This document shows, one piece after another, positions 2,460 to 19,441 of a DNA stretch of 19,441 nucleotides. This stretch comes from Calocera cornea HHB12733. Taxonomy: Eukaryota > Basidiomycota > Dacrymycetes > Dacrymycetales > Dacrymycetaceae. How positions within the stretch are numbered: the first letter of the stretch is position 1; every line of letters starts with the position of its first letter. The position numbers and the translations under genes are program-made. Under the pieces are notes generated by a model. The model saw nothing but the letters and a program-made list of their open reading frames with translations, was not told where the DNA came from and searched no databases. Where the stretch lies: NCBI GenBank assembly GCA_001632435.1, contig KV424187.1, positions 1 to 19,441 of the forward strand, written 5' to 3'.

Positions 2460-2551
2460 GCTGGCGTACAATAGGAAGACCTGTGTAGCTTACAAGAGTT
2501 TATGCACTTCTTTGAGATCATGCATGTGTTGTGACTTGCAAGTTGTGAAGC

Positions 2552-4203
2552 ATGGCTTCACAGAAGGCGGACAAGAGACGCGCCAATGAGACACGAGACG
2601 CGTCAATGGTACACGTCGGTGGAACGGGGAAGGGAGACGCGTCTTCTTCTACATCGACTATCCCCTCTAACCAGAGTGTCGACGTCATGCAGACAGTTCT
2701 CGAAACAGAGGACACCTTGCACTTGGTCCTTGAGAAGATGGATAACTCGACTCTCGTAGCGATGGCCTGCGTAGCGCGACGCTTCATGCGCCCAGCCTTG
2801 AAGCAAGCGTGGAGAGTGCTAGACGATGCCAAACTTCGGTCAATGACTCGTACGAGCAAAGACAGCAGACTGAACTTCCATGGAGTGGGTTATGCGTTCA
2901 TGAGTGTATGTATGGCTTGCTGACTACAGTGAAGTCAGACAGTACTGCTGCCTATTACAGGAGCTTGCCCTTGTCGATGTCACTAAACCTCTCTGAGAAT
3001 TGTGGCCGGATGACATCGCCCTGGCTCTTACTGGCTCTGTTGCAAACGAACGAAACCACGATACTTCCTCGCTTGCGTCAAATAACGCTCATCCTCGGTG
3101 GTGATCTAGACATCGCCTTTCTACACTACTTCCTCACTTGTCATACCAAGGTTCAGGATTTGGTCCTCGACTTCAGCATGATGGAAGTGGAAATTACCAC
3201 GCTCAAGCCGCTACTTGACTGTCTACACACAGCATCAGGGACGTTATCTCAACTAGCTCTCCGGAGTCTTCCGATGGTATCGCCTGTGTTCGCGGACAAG
3301 CTCGCCGCTACCCTTTGCGGTTTGTCAGGAATAGAGTCACTCGTGATACAAACGGACGACACGTTACCAGCGACGGTGGTCCGATCAATCATGTCTATCG
3401 ATTCCCTCTCACACCTCGACCTGAAGGCACTCGCATTCGGAGATGTACGAGAAAGACTCCGTTTCTGTCATCTATGGCGACTAGAAAGTCTGCACCTGCG
3501 CGGGGACCTGACCACGGTGATGTGCATGCTTAGCTGCGTGGCAACCTCGTTGCGCGTTCTCAAGCTCGCACTTCCTTTGTCTGCACTGGAAGAAGAACAG
3601 ATGCACGACATGACAGCGCAGATAGCGTCTCGATTTCCCCAACTCAAGTCAATCCATCTGCTGCTGAAACGAAGTGAGGACGAAGATGCGCGTCTCTTTT
3701 CTTGGGACCAGCTTGTCCCGCTCCTCAAGTGTCATGACCTCCGGTACTTCGTATGCAGATTCGATGGCGCATGTCCGATCAAAATCAAGAACAAGGACCT
3801 GCTTGACATCGCAGAGAGCTGGAAGGAGCTGACCATGTTCAAGTGTCATGCATGGCCCTCGACGTTTCCAGTACCGGAGGAGCTATGCAGCGCAATGCGT
3901 AACGAATGCAGTCTCACACTTGAAGAAGTCGCAAGAATGTGTACCCTTCTTCCGAATCTGCGCGAGCTGCACCTGTCGCACGTCAAATTTGCTCCGCCCG
4001 AGCGCGAACTCGCTGAAGAGACCGACCTTGAGGAGCTTCTCATGGACCAAGTGACGGTTGACGATGCAGAGCGCGCAGGGCAGATGCTAGCAACAACTTT
4101 TCGCGCGGCTATAGCTATAGTGATGTATACCACGAGCACAGAAGAACAGTGGACAGATGTCCTCTCCCATGCGCGAAGAGTTCGGCGGGCATGGATGGGA
4201 TAG
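2552..4203 (+). CDS. F-box / LRR-like protein
   Basis: Likely substrate-receptor type protein of an SCF ubiquitin ligase. The ATG at 2552 opens a Ser/Thr-rich leader of about 45 residues. An F-box-like segment follows at about residues 47-92 (ETEDTLHLVLEKMDNSTLVAMACVARRFMRPALKQAWRVL pattern), with the usual Leu-rich first half and the 'C..ARRF..PALKQAWR' second half. Downstream, 2962-4203 codes for irregular Leu-rich repeats (LPRLRQITLI, LSHLDLK, LESLHLRGDL, LPNLRELHLS), as in the large F-box families of basidiomycetes, which often recognise unknown targets. The two parts lie in different frames. A GTATGT donor at 2906 is clear, but the obvious acceptor at 2960 gives the wrong frame. An acceptor at 2997, with a CTAAAC branch site about 10 nt before it, restores frame but ends in GAG. 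So either that 92-nt intron is used or the gene carries a frame error. TAG stop at 4201-4203. The F-box assignment rests on pattern only. Confidence 0.65.
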
Positions 4204-4913
4204 ATGCAACTGCTACAGGGAACGGGCCCTGCTTGATACAACTAAAAGATGCGCGACAATATGGCTTCCTGTAGTGAATGACACAGTGAGCACGTTATTG
4301 CCATGTACAGAGAGGTTGTGGATGGAGTCGCTGTATGACCATTTCCCGGATACGTGTGGGAGGAACAACAAACGCACAAGTCACGCTGCAGAGAGCGTCC
4401 GGAAAGATGTTTTTGACTGTGGAAATGTGTTCCAGGGTGGGAACCTGAGTCATCTGATATACGTTCTATGCAATGCTCCTTAATCGAGTTCCAATGGCTA
4501 GAGATACATGAGAAGCTGAGGTGCAGTACGAAAGGGTGAGCCAGGTGGAAGTGCTACATATGCAGTTGTTACTGGAGCTGGTGTGTCATCTGGACAGCAG
4601 CTGGACGCGGAGCCTGCGGAAGCAACCGTGCACCTCTTGCCCACCGTAGTGCGACGGCGACGGCCAATCGCGTATGGTCCTTGCCCACCTACGCTCCCCG
4701 ACCGACGCCGAACTTACTGCCCTTGCTCGACCACAAGCTGTCAAGCGGCTGGACGCTGCACGCTCGACACACCCCGCGCAGCAAAAGCGTACAAAGAGCG
4801 CTGCCGCCGGAGAATGAGTGAGCGCGCACGGTAGCACCTCTCTCTCCACGCTTCACACACCACCCTCACCCCCCACCCCCACCCCTCTGCTCCTCCCCGC
4901 ACCAGCGCGCGCA
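4204..4913. other. Intergenic region
   Basis: This stretch lies between the F-box/LRR gene stop and the next start codon. Short open frames are present (for example 4583-4834 on + and 4586-4849 on -), but they overlap each other and lack recognisable protein features. I see no RNA gene or repeat. The right part presumably contains the promoter of the downstream membrane-protein gene. Confidence 0.5.
4848..4913 (+). promoter_or_regulatory. Pyrimidine-rich leader/promoter tract
   Basis: An almost pure C/T tract (runs of CCCCCCACCCCCACCCC) directly precedes the ATG at 4914. Such CT-rich tracts are common just upstream of start codons in basidiomycete genes, where they often mark the transcription start or 5' UTR. 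No TATA box is evident. The call is based on composition and position only. Confidence 0.35.
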
Positions 4914-5555
4914 ATGTCCGCCTCCTCCACCCTCCCGCTGCTCTACGCCCTCTACCGCCTGCTCAACCCTCCCCTCCCAACCCCGCTCGACTACCTCCCC
5001 CTCATCTTCCGCCTCCTCGCCCTCTCCATCGCAGGCCCATTCCTCTTCATCACCTTCCTCGAGGTCGCAGGCTACCTCGTCGTGCGCACACTGGGGTTCA
5101 CCACCCGCCTGCCCGGGTCCGCAGCGAGCTCTAGAGCGGGGTCAGCGACCTCCAGCCCAAGCTCGGAGAAGCCCCTCCTCCCCGCAGCCCTCGGCCTCCA
5201 GCCCATCCCCGTCCCCGTACCCGCGTCCGAGCCGCACAACGCCCTCTCAGATGCCCAGCGCACCCTCGCACCCCCACCCCAGATCCTCATCCCCGCCACC
5301 AATGTCCTGCGCTCGCCCACACCCGGGAAATACGAGACGTACTTCGCCACGCCTGGGGAGCACGACTTCCGGCTCTCGGGCACGGGGCTGTTCTCCCCGC
5401 CCGACTCGCGGGAGGGGAGCCCGCCGCATTCTTCTGTCGGCTTGGGAGGGGCGGAGGGGAGGAGCAGTGCGCTTGGACTCGGGATGGACGCGGACGTACG
5501 GAGCCGGACGGGCATGAACGGACTCAAGGCGCTCACTCCTGTAGAGGCGCGGTGA
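4914..5555 (+). CDS. Small membrane-anchored hypothetical protein
   Basis: This is a single-exon gene of 213 residues. I chose the ATG at 4914, directly after the pyrimidine tract, over an upstream in-frame start at 4818, which would add low-complexity Thr/Pro sequence. Residues 1-24 are short and moderately hydrophobic. Residues about 30-57 form one strongly hydrophobic segment (PLIFRLLALSIAGPFLFITFLEVAGYLVV), probably a membrane span, followed by Arg residues. From about residue 65 to the end the protein is Ser/Pro/Gly-rich and looks disordered (SSRAGSATSSPSSEK, then TPGKYETYFATPGEHDFRL). Codon use is extremely GC/C-ending, which supports real coding and contrasts with the flanking DNA. No catalytic motif is visible and I do not recognise the family. 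Antisense open frames over the same bases (5072-5671, 5247-5834) are by-products of the GC-rich codons. TGA stop at 5553-5555. Confidence 0.7.
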   Translation: MSASSTLPLLYALYRLLNPPLPTPLDYLPLIFRLLALSIAGPFLFITFLEVAGYLVVRTLGFTTRLPGSAASSRAGSATSSPSSEKPLLPAALGLQPIPVPVPASEPHNALSDAQRTLAPPPQILIPATNVLRSPTPGKYETYFATPGEHDFRLSGTGLFSPPDSREGSPPHSSVGLGGAEGRSSALGLGMDADVRSRTGMNGLKALTPVEAR

Positions 5556-6750
5556 TCTCCTTCCTGCACGCTCACTAGATCGAGCCATGGGAGGCAAGGG
5601 GAGTTGTACGATTGTTTCCAGAGAAGGAGGCCCGGGAGGGGAGCGGAGGAGAGGAGGGGAGGGAGGAGCATATATGCATGTTATGCCCGCGCCCGCGCGG
5701 CCCATCCTCGCGCGCCCGCCATCCCCGGTGTACCGCTCGCCCGTCTCGCTCATTATTCGCCCACTACACGCTGCCGCTAGACGACACCTCGACACCCGTT
5801 CTGTCCGTTCCGTTCGCATCATCACTACATTCATCCATCCCCTTTCTCATCCGCATATCCACCATTCTCGTTCGTTCTCATCCCTGTGTTACCGCCTGTG
5901 CTACTTACGTTACCGAAAATTGCGATATACGCGCGCATGTACTCATCAAACTCAACGTTCCTTATGCCTATGTGTTCTGTCTGTACGGATGCCACTGCGA
6001 AAATGTAAAACGGGCGTGCTGTGCTCGGCCACCTCGCTCCTGTTCTGACCTGCTCTGCGCGTGTCACACCCTCCCACCCCCGCCCCCACTCTCCGCTCTA
6101 CCCTCTATCAGACGCGAGCAACCGAAACCCCGCAGGCGCTGCGCAGGCTCACTCTCGGCCGCGCCCAGCACCCTCATAACGAACTGCAGAGCTTGGCCAG
6201 GTCATGCACGCCAGGGCCCGACAGGGACTCCCGAGACTAGTTTCGAATGAGTGTACGCAATGCGCACACCCAAGAAAGGTCCGGTCCGCGGTCCCTCAGG
6301 CTGTAGGCGTCCCTCCTGTGGGATGGGGGCTCCGAGTTCTCCCGCGCTGCCAGCGTGGAGAAGGGAGTGTTACCAGTGGCTCAGTTGGTGCGGACTCGGA
6401 CCATCGTGGCCCGTGCGGCGGCGGAGGGAGGCGAAGCGCCTTTCCGGTTGCCGGCGGGCGTTGGGGGAGCCTCGAATCGAGATGGGGTGATGAAAGGGGG
6501 CATGGAGAGCGTGGACTCAGCCGGGGGATCTGGACGCTCGAGGTTGGTGCTCTCCCGCGGTGCTGGCTGCATCAGATAGACTTGGCCGGGGAGCCTAGAG
6601 GGGGGATCGGCCGGGTAGTTGGCAGTCTCGACGCCCGGAAACGTGCTCGCGCATACTCCTTACCCGCACTGTCATCTGCATCTGAAAACTACACCGGTAA
6701 CAGCCCCTCCCACACGCAGGTAACACACCCTAGGCAGCTCCCATGCGACC
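5556..6750. other. Gene-free region, probable 3' UTR then unassigned DNA
   Basis: About 5556-6010 is C/T-rich and probably includes the 3' UTR of the preceding gene. About 6190-6730 is G-rich on the + strand, with several hundred bases of open frames but no protein-like sequence. A tRNA A-box-like string near 6375 is not supported by a tRNA fold. The GGCY motif that characterises the next 11 kb is absent here apart from isolated GGCCGGG strings near 6580-6610. I see no gene. Confidence 0.5.
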
Positions 6751-6808
6751 CCAATTAGGGGGTATGTCGACGCGGGTGCGCGATCGGCCTGTTAGGGGTC
6801 CCCGCCAG

Positions 6809-6937
6809 CCAGATCTGGTCCGAATGCGGTCGCCTGCGGGCCGCTTACCAAAAACAGATCTGGCCCCGTATGGTCCCTTGGCAGCAGTATCTGGGCGCCA
6901 ATCTGTCTTCCCTCTGTGTTTAGCTCCACATCTGGTC
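6809..6937. promoter_or_regulatory. Cluster of CAGATCTG-type palindromic sites near left edge
   Basis: CCAGATCTGGTC lies at 6809-6820, CAGATCTGG at 6855-6863 and ACATCTGGTC at 6928-6937, with degenerate copies (TATCTGGGC, AATCTGTC) between. The same palindrome clusters in the divergent promoter at 13893-14004. CAGATCTG fits the CANNTG E-box form bound by bHLH factors, but it could equally be a transposase-binding subterminal repeat. Function is inferred only. Confidence 0.45.
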
Positions 6938-6939
6938 AA

Positions 6940-8430
6940 TGTTATTGTATGCCCTGGCTGCCGGCCATCCGGCCATATTATATCACTGGCTAACATCAAC
7001 ATAATGCTCGACAGAGAGGGGGTCAAGCGTCCGCAGCCCCCGTCGCCAGCGACATTTTCCCCGTCCACCTTGTCCTTGTCCTGCTCGTCGACAACTCTGC
7101 TCTTTGCCTGGAACTGGTCAGTGTCGTCAATCTTTCTCCAATTTCCTGTCCATTTGCTTGTCTACGGCTGGGCTGGCTGGCTGGTTCTCTACTGCACCCA
7201 CTCGGACGATAGTTTCTCGCCCGTCTTCCCACGGCCGACCGGCTCGTCGCTTCCGTCTTCCGGTTCGTTGCCAGTGCTTGCCTCGCGCCTGGCTTCCCAG
7301 TGCGAAGTTGCGAAGTTCGCCAGCCATCCTCTGGGCACGATCCTCGCCCTACTGAGCTCTACTATACTGACAGCTGTCTCCTTAACGATCTTTGTCTCCT
7401 TCGTGTTCACTTCCTCCACGTTTTCGCGCTCTGAGTCTCAACCTACCCGCCCCCTCCATGGTGACAGCGGCTGGCTGGGGTACGAGATCAACTCGCAGCG
7501 CTGACTCGCTCGCGTTGGGGCTTCGTCTTCTCCCCCTTCTTGCCGGCTGGATGTTCTATCGCTCTTCACGATGCATCTGCTCGGCTGGCTGGCTGGCGTG
7601 GCCGATGTTCCTTGCCAGCGTGTACGCCCTGTCACACGCTACACCTTCCGCAGCCGATCTGCCGCGTGTTCACCCTCGGGTCATGCTGTCCATTTTGTTC
7701 TTTGCTTTCTCAACCCATCGCCCTACGCCCAACAAACAATGGAAGGCCGGATGGCCGCCGAATAGCTTGGCTTCCGAGCTGAGACATTCCAGCGACGCGC
7801 ACAAGACGATCCCACATGCGGCCTTAATCCCTCCGTCCCCGCTGCACATTGAGAAGGAGCTGCACCTCACCACAGCAGAGTGGCTGGCTGCACTCGCACT
7901 CGCACTCGCAGAGGCGAGTGTAACCACTCCGTTATGGGAACACACCGCCTTCTGCCCGCAGTGCAACTCCATGGAGCACCCGCTTAGGGGCCCTCCGGCC
8001 GGCTGGATCATCCCAACAAGATGCTCTCCATCTGTGACGCCGGTATCTGCTTGACAAGCGTGACCTAGTTTAGAACAGATGTCATTCATGGGCGGGCGGC
8101 CTTATCCTCCTCCGCCAACATCTTCTGCGTCGGCCAGCTCGGCGAGCCGCCTCCCAATCACGGCTGCGTTGACCATTGGCCGTAGCGGCGGCCGATCAGT
8201 GTACCTTCCTATTTCCATCTCCAACTATCTGGTGAACGCGGTGTTTAGAACATAGGCCATTGATTCTTCGCATTCCACCTCGTCCTGAGATTCCTGTATG
8301 ATACATCTGTGATGGGACTGGTTGGCCGCCGGCCAGGCTGGCCAGCTGGCCGGCTGAGTGTTCATTGAACACTCCATCAACATTGCCGCACGATGGCTTC
8401 CATTACCAGTCTTGTACCTAGCTAGCGTAG
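6940..8430. other. Non-coding left part of the element, downstream of the KDZ gene
   Basis: About 1.5 kb lies between the left palindrome cluster and the stop codon of the KDZ-Ulp1 gene. It carries about ten GGCY motif copies and is biased to C/T on the + strand over 7060-7560. Open frames up to about 250 codons exist on + (6743-7504, 7392-8054), but the translations are low-complexity Ser/Leu/Pro without protein-like pattern, and a minus-strand frame overlaps them. A small hairpin-like set of CACTCG units followed by GCGAGTG lies at about 7890-7920. No gene called; an unannotated non-coding transcript is possible. Confidence 0.45.
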
Positions 8431-11400
8431 CTACTTTCCATCACTAGCAATAGGCCACCCCATTACGTAGCTGTACAAAGCCCGTCGGAAAGCCCAGGCC
8501 CTCGGTCCTTCGCTCCTCGTGAACCCTCGGCAAATGCTCAGCTCGTTCATGAGCAGCCAGCCACCACAGTCATAGCCATTATCTTGTTGTATCACTTGCT
8601 CACTCCGGTACTGCCAGCCGGCCCAGCCGGGGTCCCTTAATCCGACTACTTCTCGCGCCTTTGTGATGCTGTCTCGAACCCACTGCTCACGAATCAGTCA
8701 TGATTCCGTTCAGGATGTAGCACAGGCCTTCTTACCTCCGCGTATTGCTTGTGATCACCAACCCCTCGCAGACTGTTTAAGAAGGACATCGTCTTCGTCT
8801 CGAACTCCACCTTCCCCAGCACCCAGTGGGACTTCGTCGGATCATGGCATGGTATCAGCCAAATCGGCCTCCTGAAGCTGAACTGGCGATCGTACAGCTT
8901 CTGGGCCGGCCGGTCAGCTGCTTTGCCGTCACGCTCCAACTTACCTACATACCTCTTTTGAATTGCCCTCCTTCGGCAGCACGTACGAGAAGTATTTGTC
9001 GAACCAAAAGCGTTTGCCTCTGTCGTCTTGAATGTACGGTAGGTCCGCCAGCATGTGGGGATCAAATATGCGGACGGCCGGCAGGCCAGCCGCACTCGAA
9101 TTCTCAAACCACTCGTATGGTTGGCCTTCTTCGAAAAGCTTCCCGAATACCGAGATGATCTGATCATCGAACCATTCGTTCTTTTTGTACAGGATCCTCT
9201 GCGCGTTGCTATCCAGAGTGAGCCGCTCCCTCCCGAACTGCATATGTCGCCAGGGAACCGTCTCCCAGTTTACCGGCGGCGGTACGTCAATCCCAGAGGA
9301 CGCTAACCACCGCAGAGGATCCTTTTCGAGCGTTGGTTGGCCTTGATTATCGCCGGGCGGTTGCTGAACTTCAAGATGTACGCCTGACGCGGAACCCAGG
9401 GACTCGGAAATCCTTGCATGTCGTCGGCCAGCCGGCGGGCCACGCCTCTTCCCGGTGCGATCATATTCGTTCTTGCCTATCAACCCCCCCCCCCTCTTTC
9501 TCAGCCGCCTTCGTTTCATCCATGTCTTCATCATCCGTCCCCTCTCCTACGCGCCTGGCGTTGGCATGCCGTGGTGCACTAGGCAGGTCCCACTGCACGC
9601 GGTCCTCGAGAGCGCTAGGGGAAGGAAGAGTGATCGGCGTGCCCAATGTTGCCGGCGCAGGTGCAGCAAGTTGGAGCAGCGCGGAGATTCTCTCCAGTTC
9701 TTGAGCCGCACGCGCAGCCGCCCGGCCGGTCGACCGAGACGAAACTGGTGTTGGCAGGCGAGAGGGTGGACTCAGGACGTATGGGGGGATAGACGATGGC
9801 GGCAGGCCGGCGATTGGAGTATCCGCAGGTGCAGGTGCTTGCCCGTCGGCTGGTCTAGGGTCCGCTGGTATAGGCGGCCATGGAGGAGACAGCGAGCGCG
9901 AATGAGGTGACGATGGATGCGGCGGCCACGGTGGTGACGACGGCGCCGGTGGCCATGGGGGAGAGGTCGAATGGGATCGCCGGATGGCCGGCTGGCCATC
10001 CGAAGCGCGATCCTCTCCATTCTCCTCCATTTCTTCGTCTTCCACCTCCTCGTCCTCCTCCGCCCCCGCATATATCCCTATTCCACTCCTCTGCCGTCCT
10101 GAAGCGTTCAACATGACCATCCCGCCCAACTCTTCCACCGCCACGTCGGCATCTCCCATCACACGATCAAACGGATCCGAGTTGTCGGACCAGTCATCAT
10201 CCCAGTTTGTTCCCTCGTTGTCGGTGTGGCCGGCCGGCCAAACTGGCCCCAGTTGTGGGACACGGTACGGAGAAGCAGACACAGTCGCCATGGCGGGAGT
10301 GGGCGGAGACAGTGATCTGAGAGGGGGAGATGGCGGCGGGGCTGGCCGGGCGTTTCGGGCTTGGTCTTGCAGCCAGCGTTGCGTCCTTGCAGCAGCAATC
10401 CTCGTCAGCTCGACAGGATCCATGGTTGTAGTAGGCGTAGCTGGATCGTTGGTTTCGTTGTTGTCGTCTTTCCAGCGCGCACTAGCCGGGGTGAGGGGAG
10501 GAAGAAAGGTGAAAGGGTCTCCCTCCTGCGTTGTTGTCGCTCTATCTCCCTGGCTGGCCGGCTTCTGATCGATAACGATCGCGGACCTCCACTTCCCTTC
10601 AGGAAGCGCTCGACATGTCCATTTGTGCCGATGATGGGCATGCTGTGTCTCCATACGTTGCAGGTACAAGGCGTCGCCGGCATCTGTGGCATCATTAAGC
10701 GAGTGGAATGGGTCGGCCAGCCGGCTGGCAGCTTCAGCGTACCGCGACATTCAGGAACGGCTTTCTTCAGTGCATCTCTCTCTTCAATCCACCAGCCCAG
10801 TACATTCTCTGCTTCTTTTTCCAGCCGTCTCGCTTCCTCCTCACATCTTGCTCGCAGGAGCAAACCAGTCACGCCATGCCGTACATCCTCATTCGTAACC
10901 CATGCCGCGGGCGGCTGAACGGCCGGCCACCAAACGTCGTCTAGCAGATGGTGATCTTCCGTGGGGCTTTCAAGACTATGTGGGTTGAGCTTCAGGGGTA
11001 GGGGGATATTCCATGCCGGATTGAAATGTTGTTCAAGAGCATCGACGTATCCATTGTATCGCCGAATGGCGGCTTGAGTGGTATTCCAACGAGGCCCATA
11101 GCCTCGCATGATCTGGTCCCTAAGCTTTGTCCCTAACTGAGCATGAGATTTGTTCCACGTGGCCAGCCGGCCCAGCGCTTACCCAGTGGTTCTCGTCCCC
11201 CGCCCCTGGCGCGGTGCAGCCGAGCTAACTCCCACATGTGTCCAATGACGCGCTCGCGAATGTTCATCTTCTCTTGCCTTGCCAGCACCAAGAAATGAAG
11301 GAAAGCGCTCGAGACACCGCGGAACTCTGGGAATGCCTGCTCAATGCGAAGCTCGACAAACAGCTCTTCGCCCTTCTTCATCAGCTCCGCATGGCACTGG

Positions 11401-13763
11401 TGCAGTCCTTCAAAGGCTGCACGGCCAGCTGTACGGCCGTGCAGCTGACTGATACTCGCTTGAGCGTCTTGAATGATGGATTCTACTCGGAGCATCTCGC
11501 TTTGCAGGCGCTTGTAAATGCCTATCTTCCCCTCAATGACTTTCACCGAATCTATTATGCGACTTAGGCTGGCCGGCTGTCTCTGGCGGCACTCAAATCA
11601 ACCTACCCGAACGTCCCGATTGTGGTTGTTCCACTTGTAGCTGATGCTGTTCGGCTAACTCCTTTTCGGTCATCCCACTGTCTTGTATCAACCGATCCGC
11701 ACGATGGCGATGAACGGCGAGCAGCTTCAGTTTCTGGTTGAACCACCGCCCAAGGTTCTCCTTCATGGTTTCTCCGCAATGACGAAATTTCCGATCGAGT
11801 GCCATTACACGACGTGACTTCTGTTTGGCAGTCAGCATAGCCAGATGGCCTGCGGCCGGCGGGCCGCCCTTCAAGAACGTCAAAGGACTTACATCAGCGC
11901 GCCGCAAAATGGGTATCTCTCTCCGGGTGCGACTCCAGACTCTCTCACTCCCCTCCCCATCGCTCAGCCCAAACCCGTCTCTGCGACGTGGATTATATGC
12001 CACTTGGCAGGCCCACTCATGCCCGTATGCATGTAGGACGCTGCAGCCCATGATGAACCGCGGGAAGTCTTCACCGAGATAATCGTACTGGACAAACGTG
12101 CTGTCAGAAGAAGTCCACCGGAGTGCGGCTGGCCGGCCTGCCGCATTGCTTACCATACGACAGCTGTGATCTAGCTGACATCCAATGTCGTACAGTAAGC
12201 CAACTGTCGCGGCCTTTGGAAGCTCTTTCAGGAGCTCGAGGAGCATGGCCACGACATATTTCTGCTGTTCACCCGGCGTCATAATGTCGCAGGCCAAAAG
12301 GGGAATATCGTGCCGACACAGCAACACGACCACACCTGTGGGATCGAAGAGCTTCTCGTTGACCAGGGCCGCGTCTTCATCCGCAACCTTGAACGATTTC
12401 TTACAGCGGTCGAGGGCCTCTGCACTCAAGCGCGCTGGCATTCGATTGGCCGGCTGGCTGGCTCGCTTGCGCGCCATTTCTTGGCCGACAGCGTCCACCG
12501 ATTCGCGCGACATGAAGATTTCAGGACTATAGACTGGGACACTCTCGATACCGCCCCGAAATCGTCGAAGTTGCCTGTTGCCATCCGCGCAGACAATAAC
12601 ATCAGGGCCCCTGCATTTACGGTCAATGTTGCCGAGGAGCGGTTGTAACAAGTACACTCACTCGACGGCCGGCTGGCCCCATGTTTCTTGAGCAAAGCAT
12701 GCAGGGCAATACCGTCTCAAACGGTGGGACGCGCGTTCTCCTTTGGCAACTCCACCTGAATCTGTGGCTTCTGGCAACTGGTACGTCTCGGGTGGGTGCT
12801 GCGCGTCGACCATCTGCAGCAGCCGTCGCCTCCACTCGATTTGCGCCAAATCGTACCAAAGTGCCGCGCTGGCAAAGCTACGTCTCCAAGGATCTCGCAA
12901 AACCATGCGCTGGCATAGAACTTCAGCCAACGCTCTGGCTGGCCGGCTGGATTCGACTCACCTCTAGACTATCGCGATAGAACCACCCGTGATCGCCATG
13001 TTTGCGCTGCAAACCTTCACAGAAGGCATCCACTGGGGTGGCGCATGTCCGATAAAGGTGCAGAAAGTGCAACAACAGGCTCTGGCTGAATGCCATCTTT
13101 GCTCTTGTTGGAGTGCTCGGCCAGACACCAGATCTCACGAGGGTTGCCGCCAGAGGATGCTCGGCACAATATGCAATCTTGATTGGGGCGTATCCTAAGG
13201 CCAGCCAGCCGTCAGCACATAAACGAACCAAGTTTCAAACCGCGGGCTGGCTTACCATCAAAAGTGACACAATCAACCGTGTGTACTCGAGAGCCGCTGC
13301 ATTGCTCATCACAGACCGCCATGGGCATCGATGTTGGAGCATTCCGGAATCCGTCAGTGCTGGCGTATGCTTGTCGAAGACTGTCCACCAATTGAGGGAG
13401 AGCTGAGAGCCAACGAATATACGTCTGGGTCTTCTGCGCGGCGTACCGTGTGCTGGCGGCTGGTTGGCCGGCCGCTGTAGTGGGCTTCACCTCTTCCCAC
13501 ACGTGCTCCCAGTCTTCCTCCTCGGGCGCATAGACATGGTTCAATTCGACGGGAATTTCGAATCGGGAGCCCCCAATATACTGCGATCCTGGCTCCAAAG
13601 ACGGCAGCGTCGGGCCAGCCGGCCCAGTGGTCTTCTCCCGTCGCGTGTTGATCTCGGCCTCTCGCACTCTGTGAGGTACGTCTCGTGGAGTCCTGGCCTC
13701 AAGAACAGGCTCTATGGGACGGCGTCGCTTTCTGGAGATGAAGGGTTTGGGCCTGGTGGGCAT
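8431..13763 (-). CDS. KDZ transposase fused to a C-terminal Ulp1/C48 cysteine protease
   Basis: Predicted transposase of a KDZ DNA transposon. Exons (minus order): 13763-13256, 13194-12962, 12909-12662, 12610-12154, 12087-11893, 11820-11607, 11551-11183, 11132-10743, 10683-~9484, ~9483-8953, 8900-8736, 8682-8431; about 1586 residues. Phases match at every junction except near 9484, where the frame changes at an 11-G run (short intron or frameshift). The N-terminus has the KDZ-associated cysteine cluster (CDEQC, VDC, YCAEH, then CPACF). The DDE core has CADGN (~residue 338), YDIGC (~471) and SDGEGSERVW (~527), preceded by HAYGHEW. A helical region and a disordered Pro/acidic linker with three SPPWPP units follow. 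The C-terminus matches Ulp1: NEWFDDQIISVF, then SHWVLGKVEF (His), FLNSL (Asn where Asp is usual) and QQDNGYDCGGW (Gln, Cys). The start at 13763 begins a basic N-terminus; an in-frame ATG at 13838 would add 25 residues. Eight of its ten clear introns contain the GGCY motif. Confidence 0.82.
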
Positions 13764-13892
13764 CGTGGTCGAAGCGAGCGAGGGGAAGATGTCCTGCCTG
13801 GACCAGCCGGCCGCATGACCACAAGGTACAGTAAGCATGTTGCCTCAGTACCCTACAGCTGGATGACATTACGCGAAGTGTGATGCTTGGCA

Positions 13893-14004
13893 CGACCAGA
13901 TCTGGTCGCGCATGTCTCACACCTCAGTAAATCGACAGGGTCCAACCAGATCTGGTCACCACACGACCAGAGCTGACCAGATCTACGCCGAACTGACCAG
14001 ATCG
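13893..14004. promoter_or_regulatory. Palindrome cluster in the divergent promoter of the KDZ gene and its neighbour
   Basis: A perfect 16-bp palindrome CGACCAGATCTGGTCG lies at 13893-13908 and ACCAGATCTGGT at 13945-13956. Half sites GACCAGAGCT, GACCAGATCT and GACCAGATCG begin at 13965, 13975 and 13995. They fall between the KDZ gene start (13763, minus) and the neighbour's start (14121, plus), so they probably control both genes. Spacings of 10 and 20 bp between the last half sites put them on one face of the helix. Binding protein unknown. Confidence 0.6.
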
Positions 14005-14120
14005 GGCCAGGTACTGGATATCCAACCCTCGGACAGCCAGCCGGCTGGCTCTTATTGGGTCCATATCCAAGCAGGTAGCCCTCGCCATCTGACCGCCACC
14101 TTTCCCATTCCAGCCTTGCA

Positions 14121-15116
14121 ATGATGGCTCCAACTACTACTCCTCCGACGTTGACGGCGGAAGACTTCGAGCCGTCTGGCGCGCTGTATTGCGACACTCC
14201 CCGATGGCTGCCCCTTGGATCCGTACCGCAAAGGTGGCTTCGGTTCCTCATTATCCGCGACTGGTACCTCATAGACGATCGTACCGATGAAGAGATTGTC
14301 TGGACCGATTCTCGGCTGGCCGGCCTGTCTTACCAGTATAGTTCAACCGGTTCTGGTCCCCAACATCACGCGGATCCGGAAATCTGGCCATTCAGAGGGC
14401 CCAACCCATCCATCCCAAGTGCTGTTTCTGTAACTCCGCCTGCCGTGTCCATTTGTGGAGAAGCGTTTGCTGTCCCGTTCGAAGGATTTCAGAACGTGTG
14501 GAACAACGAGTTCTTCGTCTACACTCCTCTGCAACGACACATGTTGATTGCGCAAGGACGACTCTTTGGCCCCGCTCGACGTCGTTTTCCTGGCTTTTCT
14601 GCTGCGACTTTTGACTTGGAGCATGCTGGAATGTATTTTCGGTACGTTTGGCTGGCCGGCCAAAGGGAATCTTACCACTACTAACCATGGAAACTCTGCA
14701 GAGGCACATGGATCACTGCGATCTGTCAGGCCCTCGTTTATTTGCCACATCAGAACATCGTATTGATGCTGCACGATCCTCGTGCAACCGGTCGGCTGGC
14801 CTTTGAAGATTGGAAGGAAGAGCAAACTCAGCGGCTCGCCGAGGTGCAAGTGCCTATTTCCAGCGCTCCGTATTCATTCCATGAAGCCCACATGTTGCCT
14901 CCAGCCGGTTTCACCCCGCCCCTGGTTCAAGCCTGGTACGACATAGGAGAATCACGTGGGTTGACGCGGCACCAATGGATGGAGCACGACTTCACTGGTC
15001 TGCTTTTGGCTCAGCTTATCTCTTTCCGCGGTGGCCCGGTAGAATGGGACACGAGCTCCAGATTGGAAGGTCCGGGGACTGACTGGGACTCCGTTGAGGG
15101 GCAGGACATCGCCTAG
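14121..15116 (+). CDS. Uncharacterised element-borne protein, divergent from the KDZ gene
   Basis: I do not recognise this protein. Two exons, 14121-14641 and 14702-15116, join in phase 2 to give about 311 residues. The intron is 60 nt, with donor GTACGT, a perfect CTAAC branch site and a TGCAG acceptor, and it holds a TGGCTGGCCGGCCA motif directly after the donor. The protein is rich in aromatic residues and looks globular. Notable stretches are RWLRFLIIRDWYLIDD (about 38-53), FEGFQNVWNNEFFVYTPLQRHMLIAQGRLFG (about 118-148) and GTWITAICQALVYLPHQNIVLMLHDPRATGRLAFEDWKEEQ spanning the splice junction. There are no membrane segments or obvious catalytic motifs. The shared upstream palindrome cluster suggests co-expression with the transposase gene, so it may be an accessory factor or cargo. 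An exonic copy of the GGCY motif encodes DSRLAGLSY. The coding call is solid; the role is unknown. Confidence 0.72.
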
Positions 15117-15208
15117 CCCCCAAAAGAGCAGTTCGAGGATTAGGAAAGATAGTATCATCTCATAGGCATACTTTGTCAATTATGTGTTTCATGTTGCCGT
15201 TGGGACGG

Positions 15209-15220
15209 TTGGCCGGCCAA
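15209..15220. repeat. Perfect 12-bp copy of the dispersed palindrome
   Basis: TTGGCCGGCCAA is the cleanest fully palindromic form of the dispersed motif and lies in non-coding DNA 93 bp after the stop of the 14121-15116 gene. It is useful as a reference for the motif consensus because no protein or splice constraint acts here. Confidence 0.7.
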
Positions 15221-15322
15221 GGTGGTTTAGTTGGTTCAGAATACCGGCAAAAACTGTATATCCCATTCATACATGGTAGAACCACAAGACTTGACTGGCC
15301 AACCGTCTGCTGCATAACATAA

Positions 15323-15514
15323 CATTGTCGTGCTCCAGTAATCTCTGTAAGTGCCGCAATTTCAATCAGTATCAGAGCATAGCACATGTGAAGCAGAGTG
15401 CTGCTGAACCGATTGGAGCATTGTCGTGCTCCAGTAATCTCTGTAAGTGCCGCAATTTCAATCAGTATCAGAGCATAGCATATGTGAAGCAGAGTGCTGC
15501 TGAACCGATTGGAG
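15323..15514. repeat. Tandem duplication, two 96-bp units
   Basis: Units 15323-15418 and 15419-15514 are head-to-tail and differ at one visible position (C at 15385, T at 15481). Each contains GTAATCTCTGTAAGTGCCG and AAGCAGAGTGCTGCTGAACC. The near-identity implies a recent duplication. Short open frames crossing it are not convincing genes. It lies 3' of the uncharacterised plus-strand gene. Confidence 0.92.
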
Positions 15515-16527
15515 TTCTGTCAGTCCATGATGCAAAGTAGGAACCATAGTGGGCCGTCCGGCCGCATTCCTCTACCTCTCATCAACATGATGATTGCTAA
15601 TATAGCCATGTCATGAGTACGTCGCTAGACAGGCGGGTAGCGCGCTGTAATCAACATCAATTTTCGGCACTTCCGAGCGGTACATGTACTCCATGGTGGG
15701 CCAGTACGAAACACGTTACGGATTGAACGATTGAACGAGGTATGGTATGGCGGGCCAGCCAGCCGTAATACCGCTACCCTTGACATATTAGGTGATTGCC
15801 TTGGGAGTCATCGCATTTTTACTGCAGCGGAGCCGTCCGGGGAAGAGGAAAGACATAGGAATTAGTTCTCTTGACTCTTAGATACGGCTGGCTTCCATTC
15901 GAGCGAACTCGGCAGTCTACGATTCCTTTTTGTGTAACGAACTGGCCGGCTGGCTGCCCTTCTCTGCAGAGGTCAAGCGGGCTTCTCGTTTCTTCGGCTG
16001 GCATAGAATCCTTCTGCAAGGCATCCGACTCTAGCCTAGGCCATTGTAATTCATTGTTCCCTTCGCAAGGCTAGTCTCTCTTGCTATGTAGAAATCTGAC
16101 CCGTGGGGTCTGCCCGCCCAACCCTTGACTGCGGTCCAATAGCTGCCTGGGACAAGCTCTCGAAAATTCGCAAGGAATCGATATACCCGGAAACGTGGAC
16201 ATGTCATGTTGACTTCTTGTGCAAACATTATCTGCCGAGTCTCCATGCGCTGGCTGGCTGGCTGGTACTGGAGCCTTACGGCCCATCATCAATGATCGTT
16301 GTGGCCGATGACCCAGGGTCGAAACAGGATACATGGTATGTAGTTGATATGCAAGGGTATCCTTGATCAACGTGAGTGGGTTGCCGGCGTCCCACCTGCA
16401 CAGCGACATAGCACGGCTTTGTCGGGCTGGCTGGCCGGCCGGTTCACGCGACTGGTTTACGACATCGCATTTCTAGTTCCCCAAGACAGAGCGCTACAAG
16501 AGAACATAATCATACCCGGGCCCTCTG
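15515..16527. other. Non-coding stretch with one ambiguous possible exon
   Basis: About seven GGCY motif copies occur here, including a pure GGCT run at 16250-16266 and a long one at 16425-16442. A plus-strand frame at about 16103-16335 reads fairly protein-like (WDKLSKIRKESIYPETW and GPSSMIVVADDPGSKQDTW) and ends at a good GTATGT donor at 16336. An overlapping minus-strand frame at 16246-16031 is equally plausible (FRELVPGSYWTAVKGWAGRPHGSDFYIA). The two cannot both be easily accepted, so I call neither. The rest shows no gene. Confidence 0.4.
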
Positions 16528-18174
16528 TTACGGAGGGTCCCTTCTAGCGCTATCTACACCATAGTAGTGCCCACGAGGGGGAGGAGATGGCTCCCTAGTC
16601 CATGCATGAGGTGGCAGCCGGGATGGAGCCTCTGCGGGAGGTGGAGGCATCGGTCTAGGGGGAGGGAAATCGTAATGGACGGTGGGGTCGGCAATTGTTG
16701 GCCGATACCCACCGTGGTCGGTCTGCCCCATTGCCCGAAGGTGCGCAGGTGCCATCATACCTTCATCCGGTCGAGGAATGATCACCCTTCTTGAAGGGGC
16801 TGGCCGGCTGGAAGGATACCAAGAGGGGTCATATCTGTACCCCTGGCCTTGCAGCGAAGTGGGGGCACGCGGCGGGAGGTATCGGTCCTCGTGCAAGGTG
16901 TGCGTGGCTGCAAACTCAGGACCAGAATCGGCGAAATCAGGGGGCCGGCTGGCTGAAGGAGGGGATTGTCTTGGTGCTACCCGCGAAGGCTCAGCAGGAT
17001 GGCGCATATAGGGATGCGCAACCTCACGAGCATGGGACATCATGCGGCCAGCTGAATGGATCTGTCGAGGGTCCTGATTGATGGCGTAGCCACTCCGGAT
17101 GATCTTCCCTGGCAGTGGAGGAATGGACGGCTCCATGGAGATGGCGGGTGGAGATGGACCTTCGTGAGACTGGAATGGTGCTGGAGGAGAGCGACTCAAT
17201 TGTAGAGTGTCTGCGTGAGAGCGAGGGTCTGGATGGCCGGCCGGCAAGCCATCTGCCTGCTCGAACGCGACTTCTCGCTCCGAGGGCAGATCTTCGTCCT
17301 CGCTTTCGAGAATATCAGAGATCTTGCGCTTCGTATGCATTGAATGAACCTCAGGTCTCCGATCGGACACTTGGCCAGCCGGCCGTGGCTCGCCAGGTTT
17401 GCCGCGAGTGCGAGCGGGATGGGTCGGCGATCCTGCACGCGATGTCGCCTCGCTGTTTTGATGTGCCCTAAGCGGCCGGCGTTTGGCTTTGGATCGTTCA
17501 GCCGGACGGCTGGCCTCTCCCAGATCCTTAGTGCGTGTGGTTGACAGTACGCCGATAGGGGGCTCCGCATTGTCTTCATCTGCTTCTTGTGATCGACGCT
17601 CTTCATCCTTGTAGCTCCACGCCCGGCCATCGGTTCGTATAATCAAGGCGGGGTTGTGTGTCATCGGGTCATGTATAGATTCTGTAGTTGGAACGTCAAT
17701 ATATTTCTCTGTATAGGACGCTGTACAGGACGGTGGGGCCGCACCTTTGGACCACAACTCGACGCGGAGTGCGGCCGCCGGATTCTGACTTGTGAAGCCG
17801 CGCCAGATGGGGACGAGGTCTTGATCGACGCTGTTCTGGAGCTGAGAAGCAAGCTCGTGGGGCCAAGGAGCATCTTCCGGCCAGTTGATGATGGTGCATT
17901 TGTATTTGATCGCCAATTTAAGCCAGCTTGTACGCCACGGACAGCTGGCCGGCTGAGAAGCGTTGGGATCCGAAAGTAGCTTCATCTCATCTAGTCGAGT
18001 GCATGGCTTATCAATCGGATGGATCATGCAAGCGACGCAAAACATACGGAGTAGACGCTTGCCAGTTCTCTGGATGTCCTCCCGCGCAACCTTCAGATTA
18101 TCCGGCCGGCGGCGATCGATAACCTCTGGAGGCGGATTATTTGCCTGACCATGCGCTTGTTTTCTACGCATCAT
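16528..18174 (-). CDS. Uncharacterised element-borne protein with disordered Pro-rich tail
   Basis: This single open frame of 548 residues starts at ATG 18174 (a second ATG follows immediately) and ends at TAA 16528. Residues about 25-190 look folded: KVAREDIQRTGKRLLRMFCVACMIHPIDKPC, then WLKLAIKYKCTIINWPEDAPWP (about 84-105), then LVPIWRGF and LRVELWSKG. The KYKCTIINWP string resembles one I associate with hypothetical proteins scattered through basidiomycete genomes; that is memory, not a search. Residues about 190-548 are disordered, with basic clusters (SKAKRRPLR, HTKRKISDILESEDEDLPSE) that could serve as nuclear localisation signals, and a Pro/Arg-rich C-terminus. Six or more exonic copies of the GGCY motif encode ASQPAS, SRPAE, PRPAGQ, LPAGHP and SSRPAP. 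It belongs to the motif block and may be an element cargo gene. No catalytic motif recognised. Confidence 0.68.
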   Translation of the reverse strand: MMRRKQAHGQANNPPPEVIDRRRPDNLKVAREDIQRTGKRLLRMFCVACMIHPIDKPCTRLDEMKLLSDPNASQPASCPWRTSWLKLAIKYKCTIINWPEDAPWPHELASQLQNSVDQDLVPIWRGFTSQNPAAALRVELWSKGAAPPSCTASYTEKYIDVPTTESIHDPMTHNPALIIRTDGRAWSYKDEERRSQEADEDNAEPPIGVLSTTRTKDLGEASRPAERSKAKRRPLRAHQNSEATSRAGSPTHPARTRGKPGEPRPAGQVSDRRPEVHSMHTKRKISDILESEDEDLPSEREVAFEQADGLPAGHPDPRSHADTLQLSRSPPAPFQSHEGPSPPAISMEPSIPPLPGKIIRSGYAINQDPRQIHSAGRMMSHAREVAHPYMRHPAEPSRVAPRQSPPSASRPPDFADSGPEFAATHTLHEDRYLPPRAPTSLQGQGYRYDPSWYPSSRPAPSRRVIIPRPDEGMMAPAHLRAMGQTDHGGYRPTIADPTVHYDFPPPRPMPPPPAEAPSRLPPHAWTREPSPPPRGHYYGVDSARRDPP

Positions 18175-18352
18175 ATCAGTTCACCACCAAAAGTGAGAGA
18201 GAATGGCTGGCTGGCCGAACACACGCAGTGAAGTAAACCCATGCGATCTTGCAACCGTCGGGGGTTCGTCGATACGCCTCTTCTGTATTGAAAGGGCCTT
18301 GGATAATGCCCTCACTAGTTGACCTTCTTCAGGGGGGAGCACCGCAGGATAC
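18175..18352. other. Junction between the motif block and the gypsy LTR
   Basis: The last GGCY motif ends at 18217. The following 135 bp show no motif, gene or recognisable repeat. If the KDZ element ends here, its right terminus should be inside 18217-18352. A short resemblance to the left edge (GTATGTCGACG near 6762 versus GTATCGACGAA on the minus strand near 18277) is too weak to be called an inverted repeat. Confidence 0.35.
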
Positions 18353-18753
18353 TGTTAAGACCGTTCTATATTGCAAGAGACGTCTAGATACAGCACTAGG
18401 AAGGTGGCCGCAGGGAAGGAAGAAGATAGAGAACGAAGGGGACGGAGAATGACAGAAAATTACCATAGGCAGGAGCCCAAGCCTCGCCGAGGCTCGGGTG
18501 TGTAGGTGTGGCCCCAGTGGGGCCCGGGAATGCGGCTCCGGCATGTTGAGAGGGCGTCAGGGATCACCTGGGTGCACAGCCTCTCGGGGGCTCCGGGGAT
18601 GCGGCTCCGGCATGTTGAGAGGGCGTCAGGGTTTAGCCCTCGGCATGCGGCCCCAGTGGGGCCCAACGGTCAGTGTTCAGGAAATATGAGGAGTGTCGTA
18701 TATGAAAGGGGTAGGAGTGGTGTGACTGGAATTCTGGGTAAGCAGGGCTTACA
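18353..18753 (-). repeat. Probable 3' LTR of a Ty3/gypsy retrotransposon
   Basis: On the minus strand the LTR begins TGTAAGCCC at 18753, immediately after a polypurine tract. Its far end is placed at 18353, where the + strand reads TGTTAAG, an imperfect inverse of the TGTAAG start; that end is tentative. Length would be about 401 bp. Inside are a 33-bp direct repeat (18530-18562 and 18599-18631) and two copies of a 15-bp palindrome GGCCCCAGTGGGGCC (18510-18524 and 18649-18663). The partner 5' LTR is outside the window, so identity and target duplication cannot be judged. Confidence 0.55.
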
Positions 18754-18765
18754 CCCTCCCCCACC
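18754..18765 (-). other. Polypurine tract of the gypsy element
   Basis: On the minus strand, GGTGGGGGAGGG lies 25 nt after the integrase stop codon and directly abuts the LTR start TGTAAG. Position and composition match the plus-strand priming site of LTR retrotransposons. Confidence 0.7.
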
Positions 18766-18790
18766 AAGAACGTGCTCAGGAGTAGGAGGG

Positions 18791-19441
18791 CTACTGAGCA
18801 CGTGAGGCTGGTGTTACTGGTGGATGTTCCTGTCGCCATCGCTTGAGATGAACAGTATCTTTGAGGCTTGCCGCTGGTTCCCAGCTGTCATCAGCAGTGG
18901 AGTAGCCAGCCCAGCGGATGAGGAAGTAACACTTGTTCCGGTTGAGCTTTTCATCAAGGATCCGCTCAACAAGGTATTCTTCTTGGTCATTGACAAGGAC
19001 AGGACCTGGGCGGGGTGGATCACGGTTGGGGAAGAGGTTAGGATCATTTTGGTTATAGGAGCGGAGTAGGCTGCCATGGAAGACAGGGTGGACATTGGAA
19101 TTCGGCATGGACAGCTTGTAGGTAGAGGTGCTGGGGTATGATTTGATTACCGTCCAGGGCCCGTCATATCGTGGTAGGAGTTTGGCCGATCGTTTCTTCC
19201 CTTGGATCTTGTATTGTCCTCGACGGTTCTTTGTGTTCAACATGACCTGGTCGCCTTCATGATAGACATGCTCAGGTCCTCGATGCTTGTTTGCATGATG
19301 GGCCTGACGGGTTTTGGCAGCTAGGAGATTGTCACGGGCTTCTTGGATGTCCATCTGCAGGCGGTGGATGAAGTCGGTGGCAGCAGGGACGTTCAGCCCC
19401 AGTGGGGCTGTAGGGTGTAGAGGTGGTATGAGGCGCGGGCA
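18791..19441 (-). CDS. Gypsy polyprotein C-terminus: integrase tail plus chromodomain (partial)
   Basis: The frame is open from the right window edge to TAG at 18791 (216 residues visible). The first part is the region after the integrase core (MDIQEARDNLLAAKTRQAHHANKHRG), then the typical 'GDQVMLNTKN..G..K..KRSAKLLPRYDGPWTVI' stretch found before the C-terminal tail in Ty3/gypsy integrases, followed by YKLSMPNSNVHPVFHGSLLRSY. It ends with a chromodomain: EEYLVERILDEKLNRNKCYFLIRWAGYSTADDSWEP, with the aromatic positions Y, W and W in place. In chromoviruses this domain directs integration by binding modified histone tails, often methylated H3. An ATG at 19354 exists but is internal to the polyprotein. 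No stop codons or frameshifts occur in the visible segment. Assignment to Ty3/gypsy is confident; the clade is not determined. Confidence 0.92.
   Translation of the reverse strand, partial: CPRLIPPLHPTAPLGLNVPAATDFIHRLQMDIQEARDNLLAAKTRQAHHANKHRGPEHVYHEGDQVMLNTKNRRGQYKIQGKKRSAKLLPRYDGPWTVIKSYPSTSTYKLSMPNSNVHPVFHGSLLRSYNQNDPNLFPNRDPPRPGPVLVNDQEEYLVERILDEKLNRNKCYFLIRWAGYSTADDSWEPAASLKDTVHLKRWRQEHPPVTPASRAQ

Follow-up and report, generated by a model that had tools for sequence, protein, structure and literature searches.

KDZ DNA transposons of the jelly fungus Calocera cornea HHB12733 carry, family by family, a different short word dispersed along the element. The window (the whole stretch of DNA analysed, 19,441 nucleotides) is the entire contig C273 of the 32.1-Mb assembly and holds part of such an element, which belongs to family A. 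In this family, the word is built from GGCY units and, in exons as in introns and spacers, is retained well above the level of control words. This one genome, to which all results refer, holds about nine KDZ families whose words differ, D and F being less certain than the others. The array is interpreted here as a family-specific recognition signal which extends along the whole transposon and is read by an element-encoded protein, an interpretation drawn from sequence comparison and given a probability of about 0.45.

The GGCY array of the family A element

The element and its array are located in the window as follows.

6726..18288, no strand assigned: family A DNA transposon of the KDZ group (Zisupton type), of which the left 11.6 kb remain; its right part is lost to a nested long terminal repeat (LTR) element and the contig end
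6726..6865, plus strand: left terminal inverted repeat (TIR), its extent borrowed from the copy on C42, where the TIRs are perfect over 140 bp
6954..18217, no strand assigned: 45 GGCY clusters, both strands merged, examined by shuffles, spacing, and retention in three copies
Cluster starts: 7171, 7469, 7583, 7882, 7997, 8336, 8555, 8616, 8904, 9084, 9426, 9986, 10228, 10340, 10552, 10715, 10921, 11161, 11567, 12127, 12448, 12667, 12937, 13199, 13245, 13466, 13613, 13805, 14035, 14314, 14650, 14794, 15211, 15753, 15886, 15944, 16252, 16425, 16798, 16943, 17235, 17373, 17508, 17947, 18205

The left end of the element, CACCCTAGGCAGC at 6726, is common to the copies on C42, C110, C162, and C40. 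The C42 copy is complete (11880-30390, 18,511 bp), with perfect 140-bp TIRs and the 8-bp duplication TAGTTGCC flanking both ends. The C110 copy is also complete (19,156 bp), with TCGTTGAC at either side as an 8-bp target duplication. TIRs with an 8-bp target duplication, as in Zisupton-type elements, are thus present in these two copies, the window's own right end being missing.

The initial annotation had reported a block marked by dispersed GGCY clusters, and the block proved real and larger than described. The proposed comparison with dinucleotide shuffles gave a mean of 2.6 and a maximum of 7 clusters in 300 shuffles, against the 45 observed. The C42 copy contains 68 clusters, with 1 in its 2,989 bp of flanks, and the C110 copy contains 78, with 2 in its 3.3-kb flanks. 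It had also been noted that no such clusters were found in 1-6700 or 18218-19441. Over the whole window this holds for GGCYGGCY on the plus strand (55 of 55 occurrences within 6955-18217) but not for the other strand, where 28 of 29 RGCCRGCC lie in the block and one is found at 18904. The limits of the block need amendment too: the element starts at 6726 and the complete copies carry the motif further. Homology to the other family A copies stops at 18288, and in the complete copies the motif goes on for several kb past the matching point; therefore, the block stops on the right because the element is cut short there and not because the signal ends.

The clusters are more evenly spaced than expected by chance. 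In the block, the coefficient of variation is 0.50, against 0.64 for random placement (0.1 percentile), and even spacing has been observed also in the C42 and C110 copies and in the family B element on C81 (each less than 1 in 2000 simulations), as well as in families G (0.005) and H (0.035). The motif might be a by-product of base composition, codon bias, tetramer slippage, or chance. GGCT and GGCC units do form tandem runs, including one long run of 56 bp in the C42 copy, and a fourth-order Markov model trained on the block itself yields 26 clusters (maximum 40). Against these figures stand the low counts in the dinucleotide shuffles, the words of families G, E, and H, which are single and without tandem units, the scarcity of GGCY at other KDZ loci of like GC content, and a retention at homologous sites far beyond that of control words. 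An origin of this kind is considered close to negligible.

The retention test, performed in family A alone, asked for GGCYGGCY or its complement at no more than 8 columns from the homologous place, and the window copy was compared with the copies on C162, C42, and C110, to which it is 65-67% identical. It comprised 135 cells, 127 of which were alignable and 8 dropped. GGCY was kept in 89 of the 127, whereas control words, GC-rich 8-mers of equal degeneracy, were kept in 234 of 3271. The excess is found in coding sequence (47/60 versus 169/1800 for control 8-mers), introns (18/27 versus 6/183), and intergenic spacers (24/40 versus 59/1288). The identity of the 10-40 bases around the sites, with gaps counted as mismatches, is 0.46 in spacers, 0.63 in introns, and 0.67 in coding sequence. 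Retention may be somewhat inflated, as the aligner was possibly drawn to the motifs, although the control words had the same freedom. Because GGCY is kept so far above control words in copies of this divergence, it looks to be under purifying selection as a DNA sequence in family A. The earlier view that neither codon usage nor a microsatellite accounts for the motif agrees with its retention in introns and spacers and with the shuffles, and the proposal of an element-wide DNA signal is upheld by the C42 counts and by retention well above controls.

As previously annotated, the motif is indifferent to gene boundaries; it is present on both strands in exons, introns, and spacers. By hand-drawn gene models, 20 clusters lie in about 7.2 kb of coding sequence (transposase exons, 12 in 4,598 bp; gene G2, 2 in 936 bp; gene G3/4, 6 in 1,647 bp). 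Introns are the densest compartment (9 clusters in 623 bp), and a cluster is present in 8 of the 11 introns drawn, among them 7 of the 10 in the transposase gene. This density would fit signals acting at the RNA level, in splicing or transcript stability. However, the motifs occur in both orientations, and spacers are well supplied (16 clusters in 3,460 bp) and retain them as reported above; a role in RNA is thought very improbable.

Private words of other KDZ families and of Plavaka

The genome contains 51 exon-level KDZ matches. Among the KDZ loci read, the GGCY-rich ones are those of family A only, namely the window, C162, C204, C64, C110, C61, and C42. The other families carry words of their own.

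Family B: CATGATCATG
Family C: TCTAGMTCTAGA
Family D: CTGCAGC, weaker
Family E: GCAYTGC
Family F: CATTGTACA
Family G: TCYGGA (TCAGGA enriched too)
Family H: RACGTY
Family I: CGTACG/CGTCCG

These words are mostly palindromic, and the notion of a single KDZ motif has to be given up, since each family's word differs. The suggestion of a CCGG/CpG methylation mark was likewise rejected as a general principle because CpG is lacking from the B, C, E, and F words. Exact palindromes were tried as descriptions of D and F and fitted poorly, D being weak and F being one element. Families C, E, F, G, and I are each known from a single element, C and E as near-identical pairs. Near-identical contig pairs with KDZ loci (C10/C37, C103/C238, and C233/C265) are perhaps two haplotypes or recent copies.

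Enrichment was tabulated for nine words in 27 KDZ rows against 60 shuffles, with 14 rows as controls (window 1-6700, 5 Plavaka loci, and 8 other stretches). Two KDZ rows, J (L009) and K (L021), have no assigned word, and the table omits the near-identical contigs C37, C238, and C265, extra pieces of included elements, and the loci C13:273824 and C79:120321. In each of the 25 assigned rows, the family's word was more frequent than in any of the 60 shuffles. Of the 218 off-family cells, 4 behaved likewise (among them that for the E word in F, its neighbour in the tree), as did 2 of 126 control cells. Because some of the tabulated loci had served to choose the words, a blind test matters here. 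In this test, the best dispersed 6-mer beat the shuffles at p<=0.01 for 16 of the 25 KDZ rows but for only 1 of the 15 controls (Plavaka L056); with palindromes, the corresponding numbers were 16 and 0. Out-of-sample agreement was obtained for the I word in L063, the G word in L045, the B word on C13, and the C word along C103. In an earlier run of 60 shuffles, one flank control (C81) was level with the shuffle maximum.

The words are also specific at the genome scale. The family B 16-mer CATGATCATGATCATG was found 48 times in 32 Mb, and 46 of these places are within 15 kb of the five B-type KDZ matches, in windows covering 0.47% of the genome. TCTAGMTCTAGA occurs at 37 places, 34 of which are on C103 and C238, contigs with near-identical KDZ loci. 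For GGCTGGCCGGCY, 100 of 102 places were listed: 72 are near seven A-type matches, 7 are on C40 or C106, and 21 are elsewhere. The scan that had been proposed for like intervals thus leads mainly to A-type KDZ among the matches listed, but not in every case to a KDZ gene: the GGCY-rich stretch on C40 (L039, C40:22001-32000) has no KDZ match and represents a fragment of an A element that includes the end repeat and the right-hand genes. A region at 107-112 kb of C106, known from the pattern search alone, is also GGCY-rich and without a KDZ match.

Host proteins could read the arrays as insulators, replication signals, or silencing targets, and regularly dispersed sites would fit a host factor too, the element-encoded readers being candidates only. 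Such a reading fits poorly with the different words that families carry within one genome, and sites that silence an element should tend to disappear from it, whereas these are kept. A host reader is accordingly held to be improbable.

A signal exclusive to KDZ elements was rejected, as a Plavaka subfamily has a word as well. The Plavaka element L056 (C91:82623; L056:333-4014) carries dispersed, nonpalindromic AACTGTCA in both orientations, with 31 CTGTCA in 4.0 kb, and in this subfamily AACTGTCA is often found in pairs with a 12-bp period. The spaced pair occurs at 60 places genome-wide, 41 of them by Plavaka matches on C78, C91, C100, C154, C158, C229, and C280, and its reversed control at 0. 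The remaining four Plavaka loci read (L057-L060) gave no significant 6-mer in the blind test; the five loci read compare with 74 exon-level Plavaka matches listed for the genome. Private words may thus be a broader habit of this fungus's large DNA transposons. It can be proposed, tentatively, that large fungal DNA transposons of two or more superfamilies, KDZ and Plavaka among them, bear element-wide private barcodes, which would be under selection in exons as well as introns, would be read by element-encoded proteins for discrimination among self, host, and sister elements, and would be replaced wholesale when families split. A scan of viral contigs with a KDZ alignment returned no relative.

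The sister pair A and I is instructive in this respect. In the KDZ tree, copies sharing a word cluster together, except for I (on C3), which falls among the A copies and leaves A unresolved as its own group; support is weak at several forks, and the tree has flagged long branches. The C3 element has an A-type gene set (transposase pieces 31-81%, G2 39-50%, and G3/4 core exons 64-78% identical to family A). It also has, as in A, palindromes of a second kind, CCAGATCTGG, before the transposase gene. Despite the shared G2 and G3/4, its body word is CGTACG/CGTCCG instead of GGCY. When A sites were checked for replacement by I sites in place, only 3-5 of them per copy were alignable, and each time one was near an I site. 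The second palindrome has these positions in the window.

13896..14006, no strand assigned: CCAGATCTGG, 3 copies between divergent genes, at 13896, 13946, and 13997, the last with 1 mismatch
6809..6935, no strand assigned: CCAGATCTGG at the left end, at 6809, 6854, and 6926, the last two with 1 mismatch each

CCAGATCTGG is present in the divergent promoters of A and I; in family A, the end repeats carry it too, the C3 element's ends not having been located. In family A, its copies are often spaced by 20-21 or about 50 bp. Conservation of CCAGATCTGG alongside a change of body word suggests two distinct DNA-binding activities.

Genes and other features of the element

The following genes were drawn by eye in the window.

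8600..13763, minus strand: KDZ transposase gene, with a CxC1-like cysteine cluster, KDZ core, and weak Ulp1-like tail; 10 short introns
14121..15116, plus strand: gene G2, 311 aa, divergent from the transposase; its intron 14642-14701 holds a GGCY cluster; homologue in Calocera viscosa
16528..18174, minus strand: 3′ part of accessory gene G3/4, which has more upstream exons in the C42 copy

The hand-spliced transposase matches the KDZ core PF18758 at E 3.3e-46, preceded by the CxC1 cysteine cluster at 33.8 bits (cut-off 26.9), while the match of its tail to the Ulp1 protease family (C48 peptidase) is below the cut-off. At a poly-G run (9487-9495) two overlapping frames of the transposase tail meet, and the C42 copy has a single 578-aa frame; the window gene may be frame-shifted or misassembled at this point. 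G2 and G3/4 matched no Pfam family, and the homologues returned (2 for G2 and 6 for G3/4) are all from Calocera. For the B element, 17 kb of C81 were read, and tblastn recognised neither gene there. The spacer between them contains a 96-bp tandem duplication, 99% identical, at 15323-15514.

An LTR, read by eye, extends from 18352 to about 18750, adjoining the end of KDZ homology, and has two 44-bp repeats inside, at 18519 and 18588. It is followed by the tail of a Tf2/gypsy-type polyprotein with SH3_Tf2-1 and a chromodomain, running off the contig (window 18352-19441).

Possible reader and function of the array

The earlier idea of a protein-binding site or self-recognition tag remains the best reading of the array as judged from its sequence, whereas for the reader only candidates can be named. 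Mostly palindromic words suggest binding by a homodimer, which would be encoded by the element. The transposase is the sole gene seen in every KDZ family, and for this reason the leading and simplest candidate is its N-terminal cysteine-cluster region, which diverges fast, G2 or G3/4 being the alternatives. Sites placed every few hundred bases would let the reader coat the element. Such coating might keep the chromatin of the element open, an anti-silencing function like that of VANC, and leave the rest of the genome untouched, and a change of word would isolate daughter families from one another.

The same sites could instead be bound by the transposase for transposition itself, in synapsis, compaction, or protection against self-insertion. 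The presence of a transposase in every family, words which follow the branches of its tree, palindromes fitting a dimer, and the CxC cluster at its N-terminus are all in favor of this possibility. However, the TIRs, where the transposase must act, have no GGCY (zero in C42, whose first and last clusters are about 456 and 220 bp from the element ends), and the ends bear the other palindrome, CCAGATCTGG; despite their differing body words, A and I both have it ahead of the transposase gene as well. Since the array avoids the ends, where transposition acts, and covers the remainder, the evidence points to control of element chromatin more than to cutting and joining, and a role in transposition itself is viewed as unlikely, though less so than a host reader. 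EnSpm/CACTA elements have many short TnpA-binding words in subterminal position. Unlike these, the C42 array spans 18.5 kb (68 sites) and leaves two to four hundred bases free at the ends.

By analogy, the function of the array would most resemble the anti-silencing of VANDAL elements by VANC. In the Arabidopsis reports, related VANDAL families bear different short motifs bound by an element-encoded protein, the effect of which spreads over the element (PMC5735166, PMC10398659). The accumulation of a short family-specific motif within the element is common to both systems. Calocera words differ in being mostly palindromic and distributed over the whole element, in another superfamily and kingdom. 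VANC sites are described there as noncoding tandem repeats (PMC5735166, PMC10398659), whereas 20 of the 45 clusters here are coding and the G, E, and H words are not tandem. No VANC-like protein was found in the element by Pfam search of G2 and G3/4, no direct comparison with VANC being made. Given the coding sites, and with no VANC homologue found by that search, the array is not filed as a VANC system.

Among fungal relatives, Cryptococcus KDZ1-3 measure about 9-11 kb and are described as having long TIRs, target duplications of 4-8 bp, and transposases with CxC1 and KDZ (PMC12810828). Compared by description, they share the TIRs, target duplications, and CxC1 plus KDZ with the Calocera elements, and a dispersed motif is not mentioned in the available part of that report (PMC12810828). 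Some fungal Dileera/Kyakuja elements, which also have KDZ transposases, are stated to carry TET/JBP dioxygenases, with a presumed escape from DNA methylation, and two Kyakuja families in the same report have 7-bp duplications and no TIRs (PMC12730594). A Tet/JBP search of the C. cornea genome gave two matches, both below cut-off. The titles and abstract openings listed in searches of the open literature contain no description of dispersed motifs in KDZ elements, although an earlier one is possible, and palindromes mentioned there beside KDZ transposases concern unrelated matter.

Several observations weigh against the proposed recognition signal. Any-6-mer significance at p<=0.01 was missed by 9 of the 25 KDZ rows (3 D, 2 B, 2 H, A L030, and K), and in the earlier run L042 (B), L048, and L049 (A) were within the shuffle range though taken from motif-bearing elements. 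Family K (L021, C186) gave no word in the blind test, family J (L009, C10) only a weak nonpalindromic one (GCAAGA/ATCTTG), and the D word was weak; the exact D palindrome GTGCTGCAGCAC occurs at 9 places genome-wide and at 0 D loci. The E word has an odd length, and even spacing is absent in I (0.20) and E (0.58). Structure models of G2 and G3/4 (mean pLDDT 29.7 and 36.4) are too poor for use in a fold search. The noncoding position of VANC sites counts on the same side, and an anti-silencing function would presuppose that Calocera silences these elements.

How a transposon escapes silencing without harm to its host is an open question, for which VANC is the well-studied sequence-specific case. 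With about nine worded families, complete copies, a sister pair, and wordless loci in one genome, reader and word can be matched directly, and the loci L009 and L021 are useful negative cases. The words double as genome-wide detectors, as exemplified by the 16-mer with 46 of 48 places near copies of one family. Finally, as the motif is kept through coding exons, the transposase proteins themselves would be shaped by a constraint acting at the DNA level.

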